DNA from: Bacilli bacterium
Lineage (GTDB): Bacteria > Bacillota_I > Bacilli_A > RF39 > UBA660
Direction of reading: 5' to 3'
NCBI GenBank assembly: GCA_017416535.1
Contig: JAFQCG010000001.1
Span: 1-64,000, forward strand
DNA: 64,000 bases
The translations under genes were made by a program, and so were the position numbers. Below are positions 5,064 through 15,498 of the stretch, in pieces; within the stretch, counting starts at the first letter, position 1, and each line of letters starts with the position of its first letter. The notes beneath the pieces were generated by a model that saw nothing but the letters and a program-made list of their open reading frames with translations, made no database searches and had not been told where the DNA came from.

Positions 5064-5137
5064 AGGGGATTAGTTAAATGGTATAATAATGGTCTCCAAA
5101 ACCACTGTTGGGAGTTCGATTCTCTCATCCCCTGCCA
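5064..5137 (+). tRNA. trnW: tRNA-Trp (anticodon CCA)
   Basis: The acceptor arms AGGGGAT (5064-5070) and ATCCCCT pair fully, followed by the discriminator G and an encoded CCA (5135-5137). The anticodon loop CTCCAAA carries CCA at 5096-5098. The T arm is GGGAG-TTCGATT-CTCTC. The gene is intact, but from base 5093 to its end it is duplicated at 9824, because an island is inserted here. Confidence 0.95.
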
Positions 5138-5177
5138 TTTAGAAATTTAAGCAACATAAGGTTGCTTTTTTTGTTGT
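5093..5177 (+). repeat. Left copy of 85-bp direct repeat (attL-like, tRNA-Trp 3' half plus terminator)
   Basis: Bases 5093-5177 are identical to 9824-9908. The repeat begins at the anticodon arm of tRNA-Trp, runs through its encoded CCA and ends just after the tRNA terminator. The first differing bases on each side are clear. A duplicated tRNA 3' end is the classic mark of site-specific integration. The left copy completes the functional tRNA. Confidence 0.92.
5149..5173 (+). terminator. tRNA-Trp terminator
   Basis: The hairpin AGCAAC/GTTGCT with loop ATAAG is followed by seven T. An identical copy lies in the second repeat at 9880-9904. Confidence 0.85.
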
Positions 5178-5192
5178 TCTGGCGTGAATGAG

Positions 5193-5244
5193 TTTTTGAC
5201 TATACCACTCTACAGATATGGTAGTCCCCTTCTCTAGTCAAAAA
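5193..5244. repeat. Nested stem-loop at island left end
   Basis: TTTTTGACTA (5193-5202) is fully complementary to TAGTCAAAAA (5235-5244), and an inner TACCA/TGGTA pair lies in the loop. The right arm is the first part of the island inverted repeat. It could be a protein-binding site for excision or an RNA hairpin; no evidence separates these. Confidence 0.55.
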
Positions 5245-5384
5245 TCGCGTGCTTCGCCCGAAAGCGGTAGTTTTAAAATAGTCGTTTCTTTTTAAAAAGT
5301 ATTGATAAATAGTAATTAAAATCAAAAGTCAGAATTTCAATAGGTGTGGGGAAAGCGGTTCTTTTATTTTATAATCTTATGACC
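5235..5384. repeat. Left long inverted repeat of the island
   Basis: About 150 bp that match, in reverse complement and with small gaps, 9511-9658. The longest exact block is 23 bp (5236-5258 against 9635-9657), centred on a GC-rich core TCGCGTGCTTCGCC unlike the surrounding AT-rich DNA. Other shared blocks are AAAATAGTCGTT, TAATTAAAATCAAAA and GGTGTGGGG-AAAGCG. This fills the gene-free stretch 5178-5429 apart from the stem-loop at its start. Confidence 0.85.
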
Positions 5385-5429
5385 TAGACATTTTGTTTGT
5401 ACCTCTGTTTATATGTACTTGTGAACATC

Positions 5430-5457
5430 AAAAAAGATAACTAATATTTAGTTACCT
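5430..5457 (-). terminator. Terminator of zinc-ribbon gene
   Basis: On the reverse strand AGGTAACTAA/TTAGTTATCT forms a hairpin with loop ATA, followed by TTTTTT, directly after the stop of the zinc-ribbon gene. Confidence 0.8.
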
Positions 5458-5463
5458 CTTTTA

Positions 5464-5961
5464 CTACCATTTTGATATTTCTTTAAATTTATAGCTTGCG
5501 ATTTGTTCTGCTTCACCTGAACAGATTGCTTTGAATTTCCATCTACCATTGGCATCTAATCCACTATTATTATCCAAACAAGAACCTACTGTATTACCTT
5601 CTGCATCATATGCAGTAAATTCTACTTGTACATAGGAATAATCTTTATCAGAATTATTTTTGATATAACCTTCGATATAGTATGCAAAACCATATTCGTC
5701 AGGTGCACCAGTATGACCATCTTCTAGCACTAATGCTTCTTTTTTTGTTGTTGGTGTTTTTTCATTATTATTGTTGTTTGAACTTTCACTAGATTCACCA
5801 CTTCCACCTGATGCTAATCCAATTACAACAAAAATGATTATAACCCAAAACCAAACTCTTTTATAAATTGGTTTTTTAACTTTTGCGCCACATCCTGGAC
5901 AACTTTTAGCAGTATCAGCAACCTCTTTTCCACAAGATTTACATTTTATAAGTTTTGACAT
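5464..5961 (-). CDS. Zinc-ribbon, single-TM, FxLYD-domain protein
   Basis: A 165-aa protein. Residues ~5-27 are a zinc ribbon (CKSCGKEV then CPGCGAKV), cytoplasmic. Residues ~36-52 are one membrane segment (VWFWVIIIFVVIGLA). An Asn/Ser/Thr-rich linker follows, then from ~85 to the end a beta-rich FxLYD-type domain (YIEGYIKNNSDKDYSYVQVE), extracytoplasmic if the N-terminus is inside. The start at 5961 is set by AGGAGTG; a longer frame to 6120 would cover the promoter and the divergent XRE gene. It is cargo of the island and divergent from the regulator at 6071. Proteins of this build are common in Firmicute accessory DNA; function is unknown. Confidence 0.8.
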   Translation of the reverse strand: MSKLIKCKSCGKEVADTAKSCPGCGAKVKKPIYKRVWFWVIIIFVVIGLASGGSGESSESSNNNNNEKTPTTKKEALVLEDGHTGAPDEYGFAYYIEGYIKNNSDKDYSYVQVEFTAYDAEGNTVGSCLDNNSGLDANGRWKFKAICSGEAEQIASYKFKEISKW

Positions 5962-5983
5962 TATTTCACTCCTTTCTAGTTTC

Positions 5984-6057
5984 ATTATAAACCAAAAATT
6001 TCTTGCAGTAAATAGTTCGTGTGAATATTTTGCAGTAAATAATATCATACCTATAAA
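5984..6057. promoter_or_regulatory. Divergent promoters with duplicated operator-like motif
   Basis: The 12-mer TTGCAGTAAATA occurs twice, at 6003-6014 and 6030-6041, 27 bp apart. The first overlaps the -35 of the leftward promoter (TTTACT, 17 bp, TATAAT at 5984-5989). The second supplies TTGCAG, 16 bp before TATAAA (6052-6057), facing the XRE gene. A protein bound to both copies would block both promoters, which fits autorepression by the XRE protein. The binding is inferred. Confidence 0.6.
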
Positions 6058-6070
6058 TGGAGGGTATGTT

Positions 6071-6352
6071 ATGAAATTAGAATTTGATAACTTAAGAGAC
6101 TTACTTATTTTTAATATCAAGTATTATAGATATGTAAATAATTATTCACAAGAAAAGCTTGCAGAATTAAGCAAGCTAAGTCCTAGATATATTACGGATG
6201 TTGAAAGAGGATTGCACTGCCCTACTATTCCTAAAATAGAGAGCATTGCAAAATCTTTAAATATTCAACCTTATCAATTATTTGTAAATATCGATAGAGA
6301 TGCTGAAATTGTTAACAAAATGAATCAAGGTAGACAATATAATCAAAAATAA
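6071..6352 (+). CDS. XRE-family helix-turn-helix regulator
   Basis: A 93-aa DNA-binding protein. The Cro/CI HTH spans ~10-68: LLIFNIKYYRYVNNYSQEKL, then LAELSKLSPRYITDVERGL with the recognition helix, and PKIESIAKSLNIQPYQLF. The start is ATG at 6071 with GGAGGG six bases upstream. It is divergent from the zinc-ribbon gene and probably controls the shared intergenic region with two TTGCAGTAAATA copies. Such regulators commonly keep mobile elements quiet; which island genes it controls is not shown. Confidence 0.9.
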   Translation: MKLEFDNLRDLLIFNIKYYRYVNNYSQEKLAELSKLSPRYITDVERGLHCPTIPKIESIAKSLNIQPYQLFVNIDRDAEIVNKMNQGRQYNQK

Positions 6353-6357
6353 TTATT

Positions 6358-6393
6358 AAAGAGTCATCTTTGCATTATTTGATGACTCTTTTT
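6358..6393. terminator. Bidirectional-looking terminator after XRE gene
   Basis: AAAGAGTCATC (6358-6368) pairs with GATGACTCTTT (6381-6391), followed by more T on the right and preceded by A on the left. It ends the XRE gene. The rest up to 6529 is AT-rich with no gene seen. Confidence 0.85.
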
Positions 6394-6529
6394 AATTTAT
6401 ATTTAGTTATATTTTTATATTTTATGCATATCAAGACAAACTATCCATCTTATTTATTACAACAAAAATATACTTAGCGCTTTTTATGATTTTAAATATT
6501 TCATAGTTATGATTTATTAAGAGTATAGC

Positions 6530-7042
6530 CTACAATAATTGTTTTAAATATTCTTCAGTAGTAATTTTTTTGTTTTCAAAACTCACTTTTTTATTAACAA
6601 TCCCTCTGCTTGTCATTATCTTTAGATTTAATATTTCTGTATCTAATTTATTTTTTAGTTTAAATTGTAGCAGTTCCTTTGTCGATTCTAATCCTGCTAG
6701 GTTAATCGGAAACTCCGAACTGTAATAACTTATTGTTGTACCATTTGATTTTTTTGTTGATACTATTGTTCTATCAGGTTTTGCACTATACACATTACCC
6801 TTATTTTCAAACGAAACATCAACAATTGAAATTGGCTGTTTTGACTTGTTCACTATAATTAAATTAAACTCATATGTATATGTTCCGTTTATATTTATTA
6901 CTAAATAAAATAATTCTTTTATTGATATTGATTTTCTATTATTTTTATTTAATATAAAAAAGTTAAATATTGATAGCACCAATCCAGAGATTGCTATTAT
7001 CGGTTCCCAATTTTTTCCTATAAATTGCATAATTTTTGTCAT
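6530..7042 (-). CDS. Island protein: N-terminal TM segment plus beta-rich domain
   Basis: A 170-aa protein with one N-terminal membrane segment (WEPIIAISGLVLSIFNFFIL) and a beta-strand-rich remainder (NLIIVNKSKQPISIVDVSF, LQFKLKNKLDTEILNLKI) that looks like an immunoglobulin-like fold. No named family is recognised. The start at 7042 follows GGAGGG; the frame extends five codons upstream, into that site. It is divergent from the 762-aa membrane protein gene, and the two may act together at the membrane; this is inference from the pairing only. Confidence 0.75.
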   Translation of the reverse strand: MTKIMQFIGKNWEPIIAISGLVLSIFNFFILNKNNRKSISIKELFYLVININGTYTYEFNLIIVNKSKQPISIVDVSFENKGNVYSAKPDRTIVSTKKSNGTTISYYSSEFPINLAGLESTKELLQFKLKNKLDTEILNLKIMTSRGIVNKKVSFENKKITTEEYLKQLL

Positions 7043-7139
7043 ATTTAAACCCTCCATTTGCCAATATTACAATAAAATTGTATCATATTTCAACTTGATA
7101 ATTTAAATTACTCTTACTAAAACTCTTATTAATTTCACA

Positions 7140-7168
7140 TTGACTATAGATTATGATTTTTTTATGAT
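7140..7168 (+). promoter_or_regulatory. Promoter of the 762-aa island gene
   Basis: TTGACT (7140-7145) and TATGAT (7163-7168) are spaced by 17 bp. The open frame begins with this same TTG, so a start there is impossible if this promoter is used; this supports the ATG at 7197. Confidence 0.75.
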
Positions 7169-7196
7169 AAAATATTGCTGTCAGGTGGTGTATTAT

Positions 7197-9485
7197 ATGT
7201 TTCAAAAAATCGATAATTTTTTATTAGAACTAAAAATCAGACTTTTGTTTGGAAAGATTGTGTTTTTAAATCTTCAATCTTTAATTGAGTACATTTTAAT
7301 AATTTTAATAGTCACTATATATAGTTTTTTAATTCCGATGTTAGTTGACTTATTACAGCTTTTATACCTGTTACCTATATATAATTTTTATGATTTCTAT
7401 TCTACTTATCATTCTTTATATACAAATACTGGTATTGCATTAATCGGATTATCTGCACTTATATTTACATTAAAAACTTTCAAACAACAGTCGTTGAATG
7501 AATATATGAATTCTGTGTTTCAGAAAATGTTTGATACTAAATTAGATACTTATATTCAATACTGGTATTTATGTATTTTAACATTGTTTTTCTTGTTTGT
7601 TCCAAATATAAATATTTTTCGTACAGAACTAGCATATTTTATTGGGCTTTATTATTTATCGTTATCTAGTATATTATTAATTTTTGGAATTGAATTGATA
7701 AACATCTCTAATAAAATGAATAAAAACTATATTATTAAGGAGCTGGAGAAAAGAGCAATATATTTATATGATATTGGAGAAAAGTGTGATGCTTCTTTCA
7801 ATAATTTCGTAAAAAAGTATAATCTTAAACCATTACCAAATTTATTTTTTATTCAAAAGTTTAATTCAACATTTGTTGCATATACTCAATGTATAAATTT
7901 ACTTGTTAAAAATTCATTTAATGATCCTATTATTTTTAGTGAAGCAATGTCAACATTATATTTAATCACAAAAAACAGATTAGATAAACGAAAAAATAAG
8001 TTTAATGATTTTGATGTTCCTTTCCTTAGTGAAATTATTCCAACAAAAACAAATGACACTTTTATAGAAAATTTTTTGTTGGAATATCTTGACGATTATG
8101 CAAAATTATCTTTAGAACAAAGAAATAAAGACAATTTAGGAACAATTGAAAGAACATATAAACTTTTGTTGCTAGCTGGTAAAGATAATCGATATTTAAA
8201 TAATAATTCATTGGAATTAACTGTGACCATTATATTCACATATTATTTAAAAATGTTGAATTATGTAGTGGACTTTAACAACGAAAATATGTTATTCCAA
8301 ACTTTAGAAATTTTTAAAGATTTATTTTTAAACAACCGAGATTATTATGTAGAACTAGTTGATAAAAACTATTGTGATGCTACTTACATTTTATCCGTTA
8401 AAGCTTTAGAAAAAAATTCTTTTATGAATTATCGAAACATTCAAGGCATACTAACAATTGGTCTTTCCAGCGTTTTATTCAGTAATCATGAATATCGTGA
8501 AGTTTACCTTGATTATATTTTTAAAGCACTGAAAGATAATTTAAAATTATTATATCAAAGTAAAGGAAAAATAGTTGAATATGATGGTGCTCGTATATAT
8601 TTGAATTATATTTTTAATTCTTTAGAGCCCATGTCAGTTCTAAATATTTATAAAATATATTATAATAGTAATATTTCTGAAAACGGAAGTTTTATTAATG
8701 AAGAACTATTATTAAATAACGATTATAGTAAACTACTTGATTTTGTTAGTGATAAGGGTGTAATTCTATGCCTGTCAACATTATACAAAAGTAAATGTTT
8801 TGTAACATGTAAGACAAATATATTATCTATATTTGAATTTTTATTGCAAATATCTGCAATTATTTACTCAAATACTATTTTGGAAGAGTGTAAGGATAGT
8901 TATATTCATCTTTTTAGAAGAACACTTGAATCTACTATTAATTACATTAATTTATTTGACAGCAACGCTTCAACAAACAGATACGAAATTAATAAGTTTT
9001 ATATTCGTATCGCAGATAGAGCTAAGCACTATATAATTGGAAATGATGTATTAAAAAAATCTTTTTTTGAATCATATGAAACAGCATTGTTTAATACGTA
9101 TGTGGTTTTTGACGATGAATTTAAATTAGAGGATTTTTTAGAATACCTAATTTCTATTCAAAAATTACATGAAAGTGAAGAGGATGTTAACACTATAATA
9201 ACTGCGTTTTTAACTAAAATAAAAGACAACTGCACAAACATATGCACTTTTGTAGAAAAATATATTAACTTAAAACACGGTAATATGAATGGTTTATTTA
9301 GCCGTGATACAGATACTCGTTTACGTATGGAGAATACTGCCTTAGATGTTATAACAAGTAGTTTAGATTTCTGCAATAAAAAAGAATTGATTGCTTTATA
9401 TACATTGACAAGTGGAAACCGACCATCATCATCGTTGAAAAAAGCAGAATTGTTATCCATTATTAAAGATAGTCTTTCTTCATAA
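7197..9485 (+). CDS. Large island membrane protein with SAP-like C-terminal motif
   Basis: A 762-aa protein. Residues ~25-175 hold about four membrane segments (SLIEYILIILIVTIYSFLIP, GIALIGLSALIFTL, YLCILTLFFLFVP, LYYLSLSSILLIFGIEL). The remaining ~580 residues are soluble, helix-rich and probably cytoplasmic. The last ~35 residues (KKELIALYTLTSGNRPSSSL, then KKAELLSIIKDSL) resemble a SAP/HeH helix-extension-helix module, a fold that binds DNA in other proteins. No enzyme motif is seen. The ATG at 7197 has AGGTGG upstream and lies after the promoter at 7140-7168. It is the main cargo of the tRNA-Trp island. A defence or anti-plasmid role would fit its place but is not shown. Confidence 0.8.
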   Translation: MFQKIDNFLLELKIRLLFGKIVFLNLQSLIEYILIILIVTIYSFLIPMLVDLLQLLYLLPIYNFYDFYSTYHSLYTNTGIALIGLSALIFTLKTFKQQSLNEYMNSVFQKMFDTKLDTYIQYWYLCILTLFFLFVPNINIFRTELAYFIGLYYLSLSSILLIFGIELINISNKMNKNYIIKELEKRAIYLYDIGEKCDASFNNFVKKYNLKPLPNLFFIQKFNSTFVAYTQCINLLVKNSFNDPIIFSEAMSTLYLITKNRLDKRKNKFNDFDVPFLSEIIPTKTNDTFIENFLLEYLDDYAKLSLEQRNKDNLGTIERTYKLLLLAGKDNRYLNNNSLELTVTIIFTYYLKMLNYVVDFNNENMLFQTLEIFKDLFLNNRDYYVELVDKNYCDATYILSVKALEKNSFMNYRNIQGILTIGLSSVLFSNHEYREVYLDYIFKALKDNLKLLYQSKGKIVEYDGARIYLNYIFNSLEPMSVLNIYKIYYNSNISENGSFINEELLLNNDYSKLLDFVSDKGVILCLSTLYKSKCFVTCKTNILSIFEFLLQISAIIYSNTILEECKDSYIHLFRRTLESTINYINLFDSNASTNRYEINKFYIRIADRAKHYIIGNDVLKKSFFESYETALFNTYVVFDDEFKLEDFLEYLISIQKLHESEEDVNTIITAFLTKIKDNCTNICTFVEKYINLKHGNMNGLFSRDTDTRLRMENTALDVITSSLDFCNKKELIALYTLTSGNRPSSSLKKAELLSIIKDSLSS

Positions 9486-9510
9486 TTTAACCATTACAAT
9501 GTCAACAGTT

Positions 9511-9658
9511 ATTTTATTATCAAATAAAAGAATCGCTTTCCCCCACACCCCTTGCGATTCTTTTGTTTTGATTTTAATTACGATTTATATACTTTTAGTA
9601 AAAATTAACGACTATTTTAGAAACTACACTTACCGGCGAAGCACGCGATTTTTGACTT
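9511..9658. repeat. Right long inverted repeat of the island
   Basis: The reverse complement of 5235-5384 with small gaps; the exact 23-bp core is 9635-9657. It begins 25 bp after the stop of the 762-aa gene and includes that gene's terminator. A 62-codon open frame across it (9499-9687) has no family features and no ribosome site. Confidence 0.85.
9526..9566 (+). terminator. Terminator of the 762-aa gene
   Basis: AAAAGAATCGC (9526-9536) pairs with GCGATTCTTTT (9554-9564), 11 bp, with a C-rich 17-base loop, followed by GTTTT. The hairpin lies inside the right inverted repeat; the left copy keeps only a weak version. Confidence 0.7.
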
Positions 9659-9672
9659 GTCGCGCTCCAACT

Positions 9673-9706
9673 AAAAAAAAGAAGTAGAAATGGAACATTT
9701 CTACTT
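9673..9706 (-). terminator. Leftward-facing terminator hairpin at island right end
   Basis: AAGTAGAAATG and CATTTCTACTT pair over 11 bp with a GAA loop (9682-9706), and the left side is a run of A, so it works as a terminator on the reverse strand. No reverse-strand gene lies to its right in the island, so it may shield the island from outside transcription. 9707-9823 is AT-rich with nothing else recognised. Confidence 0.65.
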
Positions 9707-9823
9707 GCGTAAACATCTAATTTACTTTATACTGAAAGTGTAATTTATATATATGAGATTCATTATTATATATTATAAAACGTACTGAAATTTATTGGTA
9801 GGTCTATAACGGAATGAGTCAAA

Positions 9824-9908
9824 TCTCCAAAACCACTGTTGGGAGTTCGATTCTCTCATCCCCTGCCATTTAGAAATTTAAGCAACATAAGGTTGCTTTT
9901 TTTGTTGT
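9824..9908 (+). repeat. Right copy of 85-bp direct repeat (attR-like; partial tRNA-Trp)
   Basis: Identical to 5093-5177. It contains the anticodon loop, T arm, acceptor 3' strand, CCA and terminator of tRNA-Trp but no 5' half; the preceding bases do not resemble a tRNA, so this is not a gene. It marks the right junction of the island and the original downstream flank of tRNA-Trp. Confidence 0.92.
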
Positions 9909-9980: not shown

Positions 9981-10442
9981 ATGAAGAAAATATTGTTTTT
10001 ATTTATACTTTGTTGTTTTCTAACAACTGGTTGTTTTGGACTTAAATGTCCTGAAGGTTATACCTTGGATGAAAACAAAGAACTTTGTTATAAAGTTGTT
10101 GATGCTCCTGCAACTTATAGAATAGAATATTCTTGCGCTGCAGGATATTTATTTGGTGACAAATGTTATTTAGTTAATTCTAATGTAGCAAAACCTGCCA
10201 AACAATACGGCTATGGATACACATCTTATTATTGTGATTATGGTTATAACTTGGTTGGTAATACATGTTATCCCAGTTCCACTATTGCTGTCAAAAAAAA
10301 GTATGTTAAATGCCCTCCTGGTTATACAATAGATCCCTCTGGAATAGGTACTGGTATACCTCAAATTGATGTTCCCGAATTAGAAGTACCTTCCCTTTCT
10401 ATGTCCCACTGTTATAAAAGAGTTACTATTTCTCCTAAATAA
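9981..10442 (+). CDS. Cys-rich lipoprotein with four C-x2-G-Y/C-Y modules
   Basis: A 153-aa lipoprotein. The signal peptide ends in LTTGC (lipid-bearing Cys18). The mature part carries eight further Cys arranged as four modules of the form C-x2-G-Y ... C-Y: C23/C36, C52/C62, C85/C96 and C111/C144. The last pair is stretched by a Gly/Pro/Ile-rich insert. Each module probably forms one disulfide outside the membrane. I do not recognise a named family. The start follows GAGGG by seven bases. It is the first gene right of the island and reads rightward. Adhesion or binding is plausible, but unsupported. Confidence 0.75.
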   Translation: MKKILFLFILCCFLTTGCFGLKCPEGYTLDENKELCYKVVDAPATYRIEYSCAAGYLFGDKCYLVNSNVAKPAKQYGYGYTSYYCDYGYNLVGNTCYPSSTIAVKKKYVKCPPGYTIDPSGIGTGIPQIDVPELEVPSLSMSHCYKRVTISPK

Positions 10443-10489
10443 TTATATTTTAATTTTTGTGATATCATATTTGTATATGGAGGACTGTT

Positions 10490-10990
10490 ATGAAAGAATT
10501 ATTAGTAGATAAAAATGGTTATGAACAATTTTTTGAAGAATTTGATAAATTGAAAATGTCACTTACTTCTAATGCTGCTCACGGTAGTGAGGTCTATGCT
10601 GATGCTGTTGGTGATGGATGGCATGACAACTTTGCTTATGAGGAAGCAATGAGGCAAGAGAAAATGATTCAAACTAAAATTATGGAAATGACTAAGCAAA
10701 AAGATTTACTAAAAGTAATAGATGCTGTACCTTACTCTGATGATTATGTATGTCTTGATGATAAAATTGAGGTGGCTATTAAATATAGTGAAGACGATGA
10801 AGACATTGAAATCATTAAACTTACTGGAAAATTCAGACCAGATGATGATTTAAATGAAGTTACTTTAAATAGTCCTATAGGTAAAGCCATTTATAAACAA
10901 GCTATTGGCTCTAATGTTATATATGAAGTTAATAATAAAAAAATAGAAGTAAAAATTTTAAGAAAGGTAAATTATTATGAAACAAGTTAA
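10490..10990 (+). CDS. GreA/GreB-family transcript cleavage factor-like protein
   Basis: A 166-aa protein. The N-terminal half is a helical hairpin ending in the tip GDGWHDNFAYEEAMRQEKM, comparable to the acidic GreA coiled-coil tip that enters the RNA polymerase secondary channel. The C-terminal half (IIKLTGKFRPDDDLNEVTL, NSPIGKAIYKQAIGSNVIYE) matches the FKBP-like GreA C-terminal domain. Canonical GreA has GDLSENAEY at the tip, so this is a divergent paralogue rather than the housekeeping copy. It overlaps the next gene by 14 bases, which suggests translational coupling. Confidence 0.75.
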   Translation: MKELLVDKNGYEQFFEEFDKLKMSLTSNAAHGSEVYADAVGDGWHDNFAYEEAMRQEKMIQTKIMEMTKQKDLLKVIDAVPYSDDYVCLDDKIEVAIKYSEDDEDIEIIKLTGKFRPDDDLNEVTLNSPIGKAIYKQAIGSNVIYEVNNKKIEVKILRKVNYYETS

Positions 10991-14715: not shown

Positions 14716-14727
14716 GATTTGATATAT

Positions 14728-15498
14728 ATGGAATATAACTTTAAAGATGATGTTAAACTTTTTATGGTATTTGATATACTTGGTGATACTGAACGAACTG
14801 GACCTCATTTATGGCAAATTGAAAGATTTCGTTTAGAAGATGTTAAAAATCATATACTTGATTTATTATTAATGACTAGAATATTAAAAAAATATTTTCC
14901 TGAAGGTTTAGATTATGATAAAATCACTGATTATATTATTTGCCATGATTTACCAGAAGCTATTACAGGGGATATTACTAAATTCGAAGGTGTCTCTAAC
15001 GAAGAAATTCAAAATGTTACAGCTATGGCTATTGATTATTTAGATGAACGTTTTAAAAATGTTTTAAATGTTGGTAATATTTTAAGAAGTTATGAGGCAA
15101 GATTTGATTTGGAATCAAAAGTTGTTAATATGTTGGACAAAGTTCATTCCTCTACTACTTTTATAAAGTATGAAAGTGAAAGTCATGTAGATATGGATGA
15201 TCCAAGAATTATCCCAGAGTTAAGAAATCATCCATTTGTTGTGGAGAAAATTAATGCAGGATATGATTTAGCGGATATATTTTTTGAATTCCATATGAAA
15301 GCTGTTAATATTTCAGATGAGGAATGTTCTAGATATTTAATTACTCGTGGGCAAGCTGATATGATAGTTAATGCTATTAGGGGATTTGCGAATGAAATGT
15401 ATTCAGAAAAAAAAGATGGTACACTATTAAATGCAAAGGATGATTTTCCACAAAAAGCAATGGTTTATAATAGAGCAAATAAAAAGAGTTCTACTTAA
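14728..15498 (+). CDS. HD-domain hydrolase, YfbR-like
   Basis: A 256-aa cytosolic metal-dependent phosphohydrolase. The motif order matches YfbR-type 5'-deoxynucleotidases: LWQIERFRLEDVKNHILDLL (R, then the first metal-binding H), IICHDLPEAITGDI (the HD pair followed by E), and a distal D in VVNMLDKVHS. YfbR removes phosphate from deoxynucleoside monophosphates; the substrate here is unproved. ATG at 14728 has AGGA upstream. The 3' end overlaps the stop of the convergent gene at 15495 by four bases. Confidence 0.85.
   Translation: MEYNFKDDVKLFMVFDILGDTERTGPHLWQIERFRLEDVKNHILDLLLMTRILKKYFPEGLDYDKITDYIICHDLPEAITGDITKFEGVSNEEIQNVTAMAIDYLDERFKNVLNVGNILRSYEARFDLESKVVNMLDKVHSSTTFIKYESESHVDMDDPRIIPELRNHPFVVEKINAGYDLADIFFEFHMKAVNISDEECSRYLITRGQADMIVNAIRGFANEMYSEKKDGTLLNAKDDFPQKAMVYNRANKKSST

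Follow-up and report, generated by a model that had tools for sequence, protein, structure and literature searches.

A tRNA-Trp island of an uncultured gut bacterium that has probably lost its integrase by deletion, and the family of defence-carrying elements to which it belongs

CIMEs are elements that have lost their integration and transfer genes and kept their att sites (Pavlovic 2004; Bellanger 2011; reviewed in PMC5704250). In Dehalococcoides, islands occupy a single RNA gene, ssrA, and some carry an integration module at the left edge, conserved among them, while 15 were reported without one (PMC3146451). Strand-biased circularizing integrative elements encode a tyrosine recombinase and have terminal inverted repeats (PMC10214605). 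The subject of this report is a 4.7-kb island of four genes in the tRNA-Trp gene of an uncultured gut bacterium (Bacilli, UBA660; assembly GCA_017416535.1), found in the first 64,000 nucleotides of contig JAFQCG010000001.1, the whole stretch that was analysed and hereafter the window. The island resembles a CIME in that it has lost integration genes and keeps attL and attR in its target gene, the loss from an ancestor being recorded in a deletion junction. It differs in that no related ICE or IME lies in tandem with it and in that its parent family has long inverted repeats and defence cargo. No transfer or conjugation genes were noticed among the open reading frames and profile matches of the relatives' loci examined, so the fit to the CIME definition covers integration and not ancestral transfer. 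With the Dehalococcoides islands it shares membership in a family confined to one RNA gene, in which the integration module is present or missing, but those islands use serine recombinases and tmRNA, whereas the family described here uses a tyrosine recombinase and tRNA-Trp and has long inverted repeats. Phage satellites such as PICIs are likewise small in size and have att repeats together with an HTH regulator; the window island has no integrase, replication or packaging gene and thus lacks the int, rep and packaging-interference set of a PICI. The strand-biased elements offer a further likeness in their pairing of a tyrosine recombinase with terminal inverted repeats. Their repeats are generally short, they carry several recombinases and they are not known to use a tRNA target, whereas the present family has one recombinase, repeats of ~310 bp and a fixed tRNA-Trp target. 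What sets the window island apart from known integrase-less islands is this parent family.

The island is bounded by two direct repeats (5093-5177 and 9824-9908) that are identical at 85/85 bp and match nothing else in the whole 1.5-Mb genome (G000). They are the longest exact repeat in the window, where mononucleotide shuffles (n=20) give 17-20 bp. The first-pass annotation had described such a pair, covering the 3' half of tRNA-Trp and its terminator, and this description holds. Because ARAGORN finds a single tRNA-Trp in the window, the functional gene lies in the left copy and the right copy is a bare 3' half with terminator (Table 1). Direct repeats of the 3' part of a tRNA gene at both ends, with an intact tRNA at one, are the pattern of an integrative element. 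In the intact gene the 5' half is chromosomal and the 3' half would be element-borne, and the probable strand-exchange overlap, CTCCAAA, is found by alignment in the att cores of most family members. The core, described as running from the anticodon arm past the terminator, had also been called longer than many integrase cores; 85 bp is not unusual in the family, as the homologous block in the related loci L132 and L145 is ~84 bp with the same stopping point. Most of the matching family genomes hold one core copy only, and in G014 tRNA-Trp is followed directly by an orthologue of window 14719-15498. The same genus yielded no clean empty site flanked by identical sequence; its genome G001 has a contig that stops within the core. 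The genes to the right of attR (window 9981-10990, compared with L041) encode a lipoprotein and a GreA-like protein in G000 and a cysteine-synthase-like protein in the same-genus genome G002, so this flank is variable as well.

Table 1. Features of the tRNA-Trp island and its target gene in the window.
Feature	Position	Strand	Basis or remark
tRNA-Trp (CCA)	5064..5137	+	ARAGORN; Rfam RF00005
attL repeat, 85 bp: tRNA 3' half and terminator	5093..5177	+	
Probable strand-exchange overlap CTCCAAA (anticodon loop)	5094..5100	+	alignment; crossover position inferred
Left-end hairpin TTTTTGACTA...TAGTCAAAAA, conserved AGTCC in loop	5193..5244	+	inspection of sequences
Putative deletion junction AGTCAAAAA, 9-bp direct repeat	5236..5244	+	same word 1,610 / 1,613 bp apart in L131 / L132
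Inner part of left inverted repeat (TIR-L); outer part probably lost in deletion	5236..5392	+	
165-aa zinc ribbon, TM and FxLYD protein (phrog_14275)	5464..5961	-	
93-aa HTH_3 regulator	6071..6352	+	
175-aa predicted membrane protein (phrog_17486)	6530..7057	-	
761-aa helical protein, probably membrane-anchored	7200..9485	+	
Complete right inverted repeat (TIR-R), ending at core	9512..9823	-	
attR repeat, 85 bp	9824..9908	+	

The island is one of a family of mobile islands with anti-phage genes that has not been described before. Searches with the repeat and the recombinase against 386 genomes of the GTDB family and a genome collection revealed relatives in a dozen MAGs, at the same tRNA-Trp and with the same ends, that carry a tyrosine recombinase, a SymE-like gene and other cargo; further members were found in many genera. 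Integrase-carrying elements at the tRNA-Trp of related genomes, for which the annotation had proposed to look, do exist, and these siblings support its reading of the repeats as the footprint of site-specific integration. One lies in the same genus: a search with the left end located the same repeats at the same tRNA-Trp of G002 (MAG RGIG2101), where the tRNA gene stands ahead of a tyrosine recombinase (PF00589, E 3e-29), a SymE-like gene and TIR-bounded cargo unlike that of the window. The SymE-like homologue in G333 matches PF08845. Both ends and an integrase are present in L131 (G002), L132, L133 (G333), L134 (G296), L135, L140 and L145, and the architecture is complete in all of them, including L134, whose integrase is interrupted by two stops. 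Intact members begin with tRNA-Trp/attL and its terminator, followed by the left-end hairpin, the tyrosine recombinase and the SymE-like gene; then come an inverted tRNA-Trp promoter and 5' half, an inverted core, TIR-L, variable cargo, TIR-R and attR. The hairpin precedes the integrase in the relatives, and by inspection its stems vary with compensation (TTTTTGACTAGA/TCTAGTCAAAAA and CTTTAAACTAGA/TCTAGTTTAAAG, among others). L134 is an exception at the left end, its attL lying outside any tRNA gene (no tRNA was found). No close relatives of the family recombinase were found in phages, plasmids or viral contigs, the best match being below 60% identity.

Several side observations concern this module and its target gene. 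In L131 the SymE-like gene is flanked by an inverted repeat, GACAAGCAGG, at ~6380 and 6590 (ribosome-binding region and 3' side), which could mask the start site of this toxin-like gene. Two tRNA-Trp contigs from IMG/VR (L167 and L168) have 150 bp upstream of tRNA-Trp in common, differ past the terminator and contain neither the family TIR nor the integrase; within this group tRNA-Trp looks like a hotspot of integration. L164 (6809-7124) and L165 (reverse strand, 5499-5802), two loci from other genera, each have a cut-off tRNA-Trp 5' half and, ~200 bp further on, a complete, different tRNA-Trp that is identical in both; they probably reflect a different kind of element, one that delivers an entire tRNA gene.

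Just inside the direct repeats lie imperfect inverted repeats that the first-pass annotation had not recorded (5236-5392 and 9498-9657; 133/163 identical, ~82%; E 9e-35), and it is these long inverted repeats that identified the family of the island. The TIR-R of the window is ~95% identical to that of elements in other genera, for example G321, in which the flanking CotH protein is 51% identical; this disparity points to horizontal spread. In intact members TIR-L is ~310 bp long. A comparison of L131-L135, L140 and L145 showed that over their outer 220 bp the left and right TIRs of one element are 0.90-0.99 identical in 6/7 elements, while mean identity between elements is ~0.61-0.64, so each element homogenises its own outer ends. 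In the inner parts, L and R remain distinct types. The exception is L134, the member with the broken integrase, whose right end is like that of another subgroup. Frequent inversion of the cargo between the TIRs was considered and rejected, as the side next to the tRNA has the inner L-type repeat in every case.

The window shares the family core, TIR-R and TIR-L at tRNA-Trp and lacks the tyrosine recombinase that its relatives have next to attL, which makes it a deletion derivative of the family and not an intact member. The left end records how the module may have been lost. Window 5138-5244 aligns with the left end ahead of the integrase in L131 and L132, from 5236 on the sequence matches the inner TIR-L of these two loci at 95-96%, and the two alignments overlap exactly in AGTCAAAAA, the complete junction reading TCTAGTCAAAAATCGCGTGC. 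In L131 and L132 the integrase strand has just two copies of AGTCAAAAA, separated by 1,610 and 1,613 bp respectively, and between them lie the integrase and SymE-like genes, the inverted tRNA piece and the outer TIR-L. As the junction falls exactly at the only 9-bp direct repeat of these loci, the integrase appears to have been lost by short-repeat deletion, and one deletion of ~1.61 kb between the AGTCAAAAA words would explain the left end of the window. TIR-R, the core and the left-end hairpin are all untouched, and with them the att region as a whole. These comparisons have led us to propose that the island is, with good probability, an integrase-deleted member of a family of tRNA-Trp elements with long TIRs and mostly anti-phage cargo. 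Its ancestor would have integrated by crossover in the anticodon loop and supplied the tRNA 3' half and terminator itself; the integrase module would then have been removed by deletion between the AGTCAAAAA repeats, leaving a CIME-like island, locked in now with a complete att region, which a related integrase entering the cell could excise.

Other members have lost or broken the integrase at different breakpoints. G394 (a 1.4-kb island) and G355 have the inner TIR-L immediately after the tRNA, at junctions unlike that of the window, and in G123:C33 the integrase is cut just past its start codon. The junction of the window is absent elsewhere among the 386 family genomes and viral contigs. In this small sample the losses are independent, each with a junction of its own, and the junction of the window does not recur, which argues that integrase-less forms mostly stay put as CIMEs and do not spread as satellites.

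The first-pass annotation had left a choice between a satellite moved by an integrase in trans and a decayed element whose ends stayed identical. The second alternative has gained a nucleotide-resolved deletion of the integrase beside intact ends. An active satellite, served in trans by family members that share the core and TIR arms, would account for the intact run from TIR-R to the left hairpin, for the recurrence of integrase-less members and for the perfect identity of attL and attR, given that in G002 the two repeats show 91-94% identity to the window copy and do not agree with each other in the terminator. Set against this difference, the perfect identity of the window's att copies suggests that integration is recent relative to the split from G002, although gene conversion between the repeats, or recent mobility following the deletion, would also fit their identity. 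The assembly of G000 (~96% complete) holds no helper integrase of matching specificity: its two tyrosine recombinases (PF00589; C4:709903 and C4:867034) have the length and similarity of XerC/XerD, and its two serine recombinases (PF00239) lie on other contigs. Each integrase-less member has its own junction, with no sign of one such form spreading, and the active satellite is thus an unlikely account, for which the intact att region leaves some room. The best reading is a CIME-like island that is currently immobile and still movable in trans by a related integrase.

Two further explanations concern the origin of the structure itself. The presence beside TIR-L of an inverted tRNA 5' half and an inverted core suggests that the integrase-bearing form is composite, as would be expected if the island never had an integrase and G002-like elements gained the module between the left end and TIR-L; but the hairpin at window 5178-5235 is the one that stands ahead of the integrase in relatives, and the window lacks the outer TIR-L, so that insertion would also require the loss of ~200 bp of TIR, whereas one deletion explains both features. 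Gain of the module is accordingly very improbable. It is scarcely credible that the second tRNA 3' half arose as an artefact of assembly or duplication unconnected with integration: the assembly is multi-contig and probably metagenome-derived, and repeats can be mis-joined, but the outer flanks both match G002, each copy has unique flanks with the inverted repeats inside, and independent MAGs share the architecture.

The cargo of the relatives is largely anti-phage defence. It comprises a type II restriction enzyme in G002, an AbiL pair in G333, a CBASS cyclase with a 2TM effector in L135, Abi_2 with a Stk2-like kinase in L145, a PIN protein in L140 and a weak HEPN match in L132, and members with shorter repeats carry type I, type III and PDC-S68 genes. 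As the annotation had stated, the interior of the window island has no recombinase, transposase, replication or capsid gene: profile searches of the four genes (Pfam, NCBIfam, PHROGs, PADLOC) found none, and defence models matched none of the four apart from generic HTH regulators. The HTH_3 regulator is 92% identical in amino acid sequence to one in the integrase-bearing L145, and the module containing it (5857-6352) shows 84-86% nucleotide identity with L145 and the integrase-bearing L133 (84% in the latter). No relatives of the 761-aa protein were found in the 386 family genomes, viral contigs, phages or the PDB, and its AlphaFold2 model (mean pLDDT 43) is too poor for a fold search. Because family cargo is largely defensive, we infer that the four genes are a membrane-centred, probably anti-phage cargo under an HTH regulator.

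The inverted tRNA-Trp 5' half lies between the SymE-like gene and TIR-L (for example, L131 6654-6600). Across the eight members compared (L131, L132, L133, L134, L135, L139, L140 and L145), 21 nt of it are invariant in 8/8 while the flanking DNA has diverged, and a promoter-like motif, TATTTTATAAG, lies upstream in most. In L136 (9439-9620), which ends at a contig edge, the chromosomal tRNA-Trp 5' half is severed at the anticodon loop and the element's promoter and 5' half are joined to a tRNA 3' half, giving a complete replacement tRNA-Trp. This arrangement suggests, as a lead, that the inverted piece may act as a replacement promoter and 5' half. Rfam searches of the inverted tRNA-like piece, the hairpin and the TIRs returned ordinary tRNA only, and the idea that the piece is a folded tRNA mimic was rejected, its T-stem being unpaired by eye. 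A broader proposal, which we regard as tentative and rather doubtful, is that the family represents a new kind of integrative element, which has the two halves of its target tRNA on board in opposite orientation, recombines at inverted cores and fixes defence cargo through integrase loss. If so, the 3' half would sit at attL and the inverted promoter and 5' half by TIR-L; the integrase could act on the inverted cores with tRNA-Trp still working, an outcome that L136 resembles; and useful defence cargo would become fixed each time the integrase module is lost, as in the window.

As a rule, tRNA islands without an integrase are left unexplained, and here the missing step is visible at base resolution alongside intact siblings. 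This opens the question of why defence islands lose their integrase repeatedly. The parent family, with its long homogenised TIRs and spare tRNA promoter and 5' half, offers a compact natural test system in which protection of a tRNA gene by an integrating element, and cargo exchange, can be tested.
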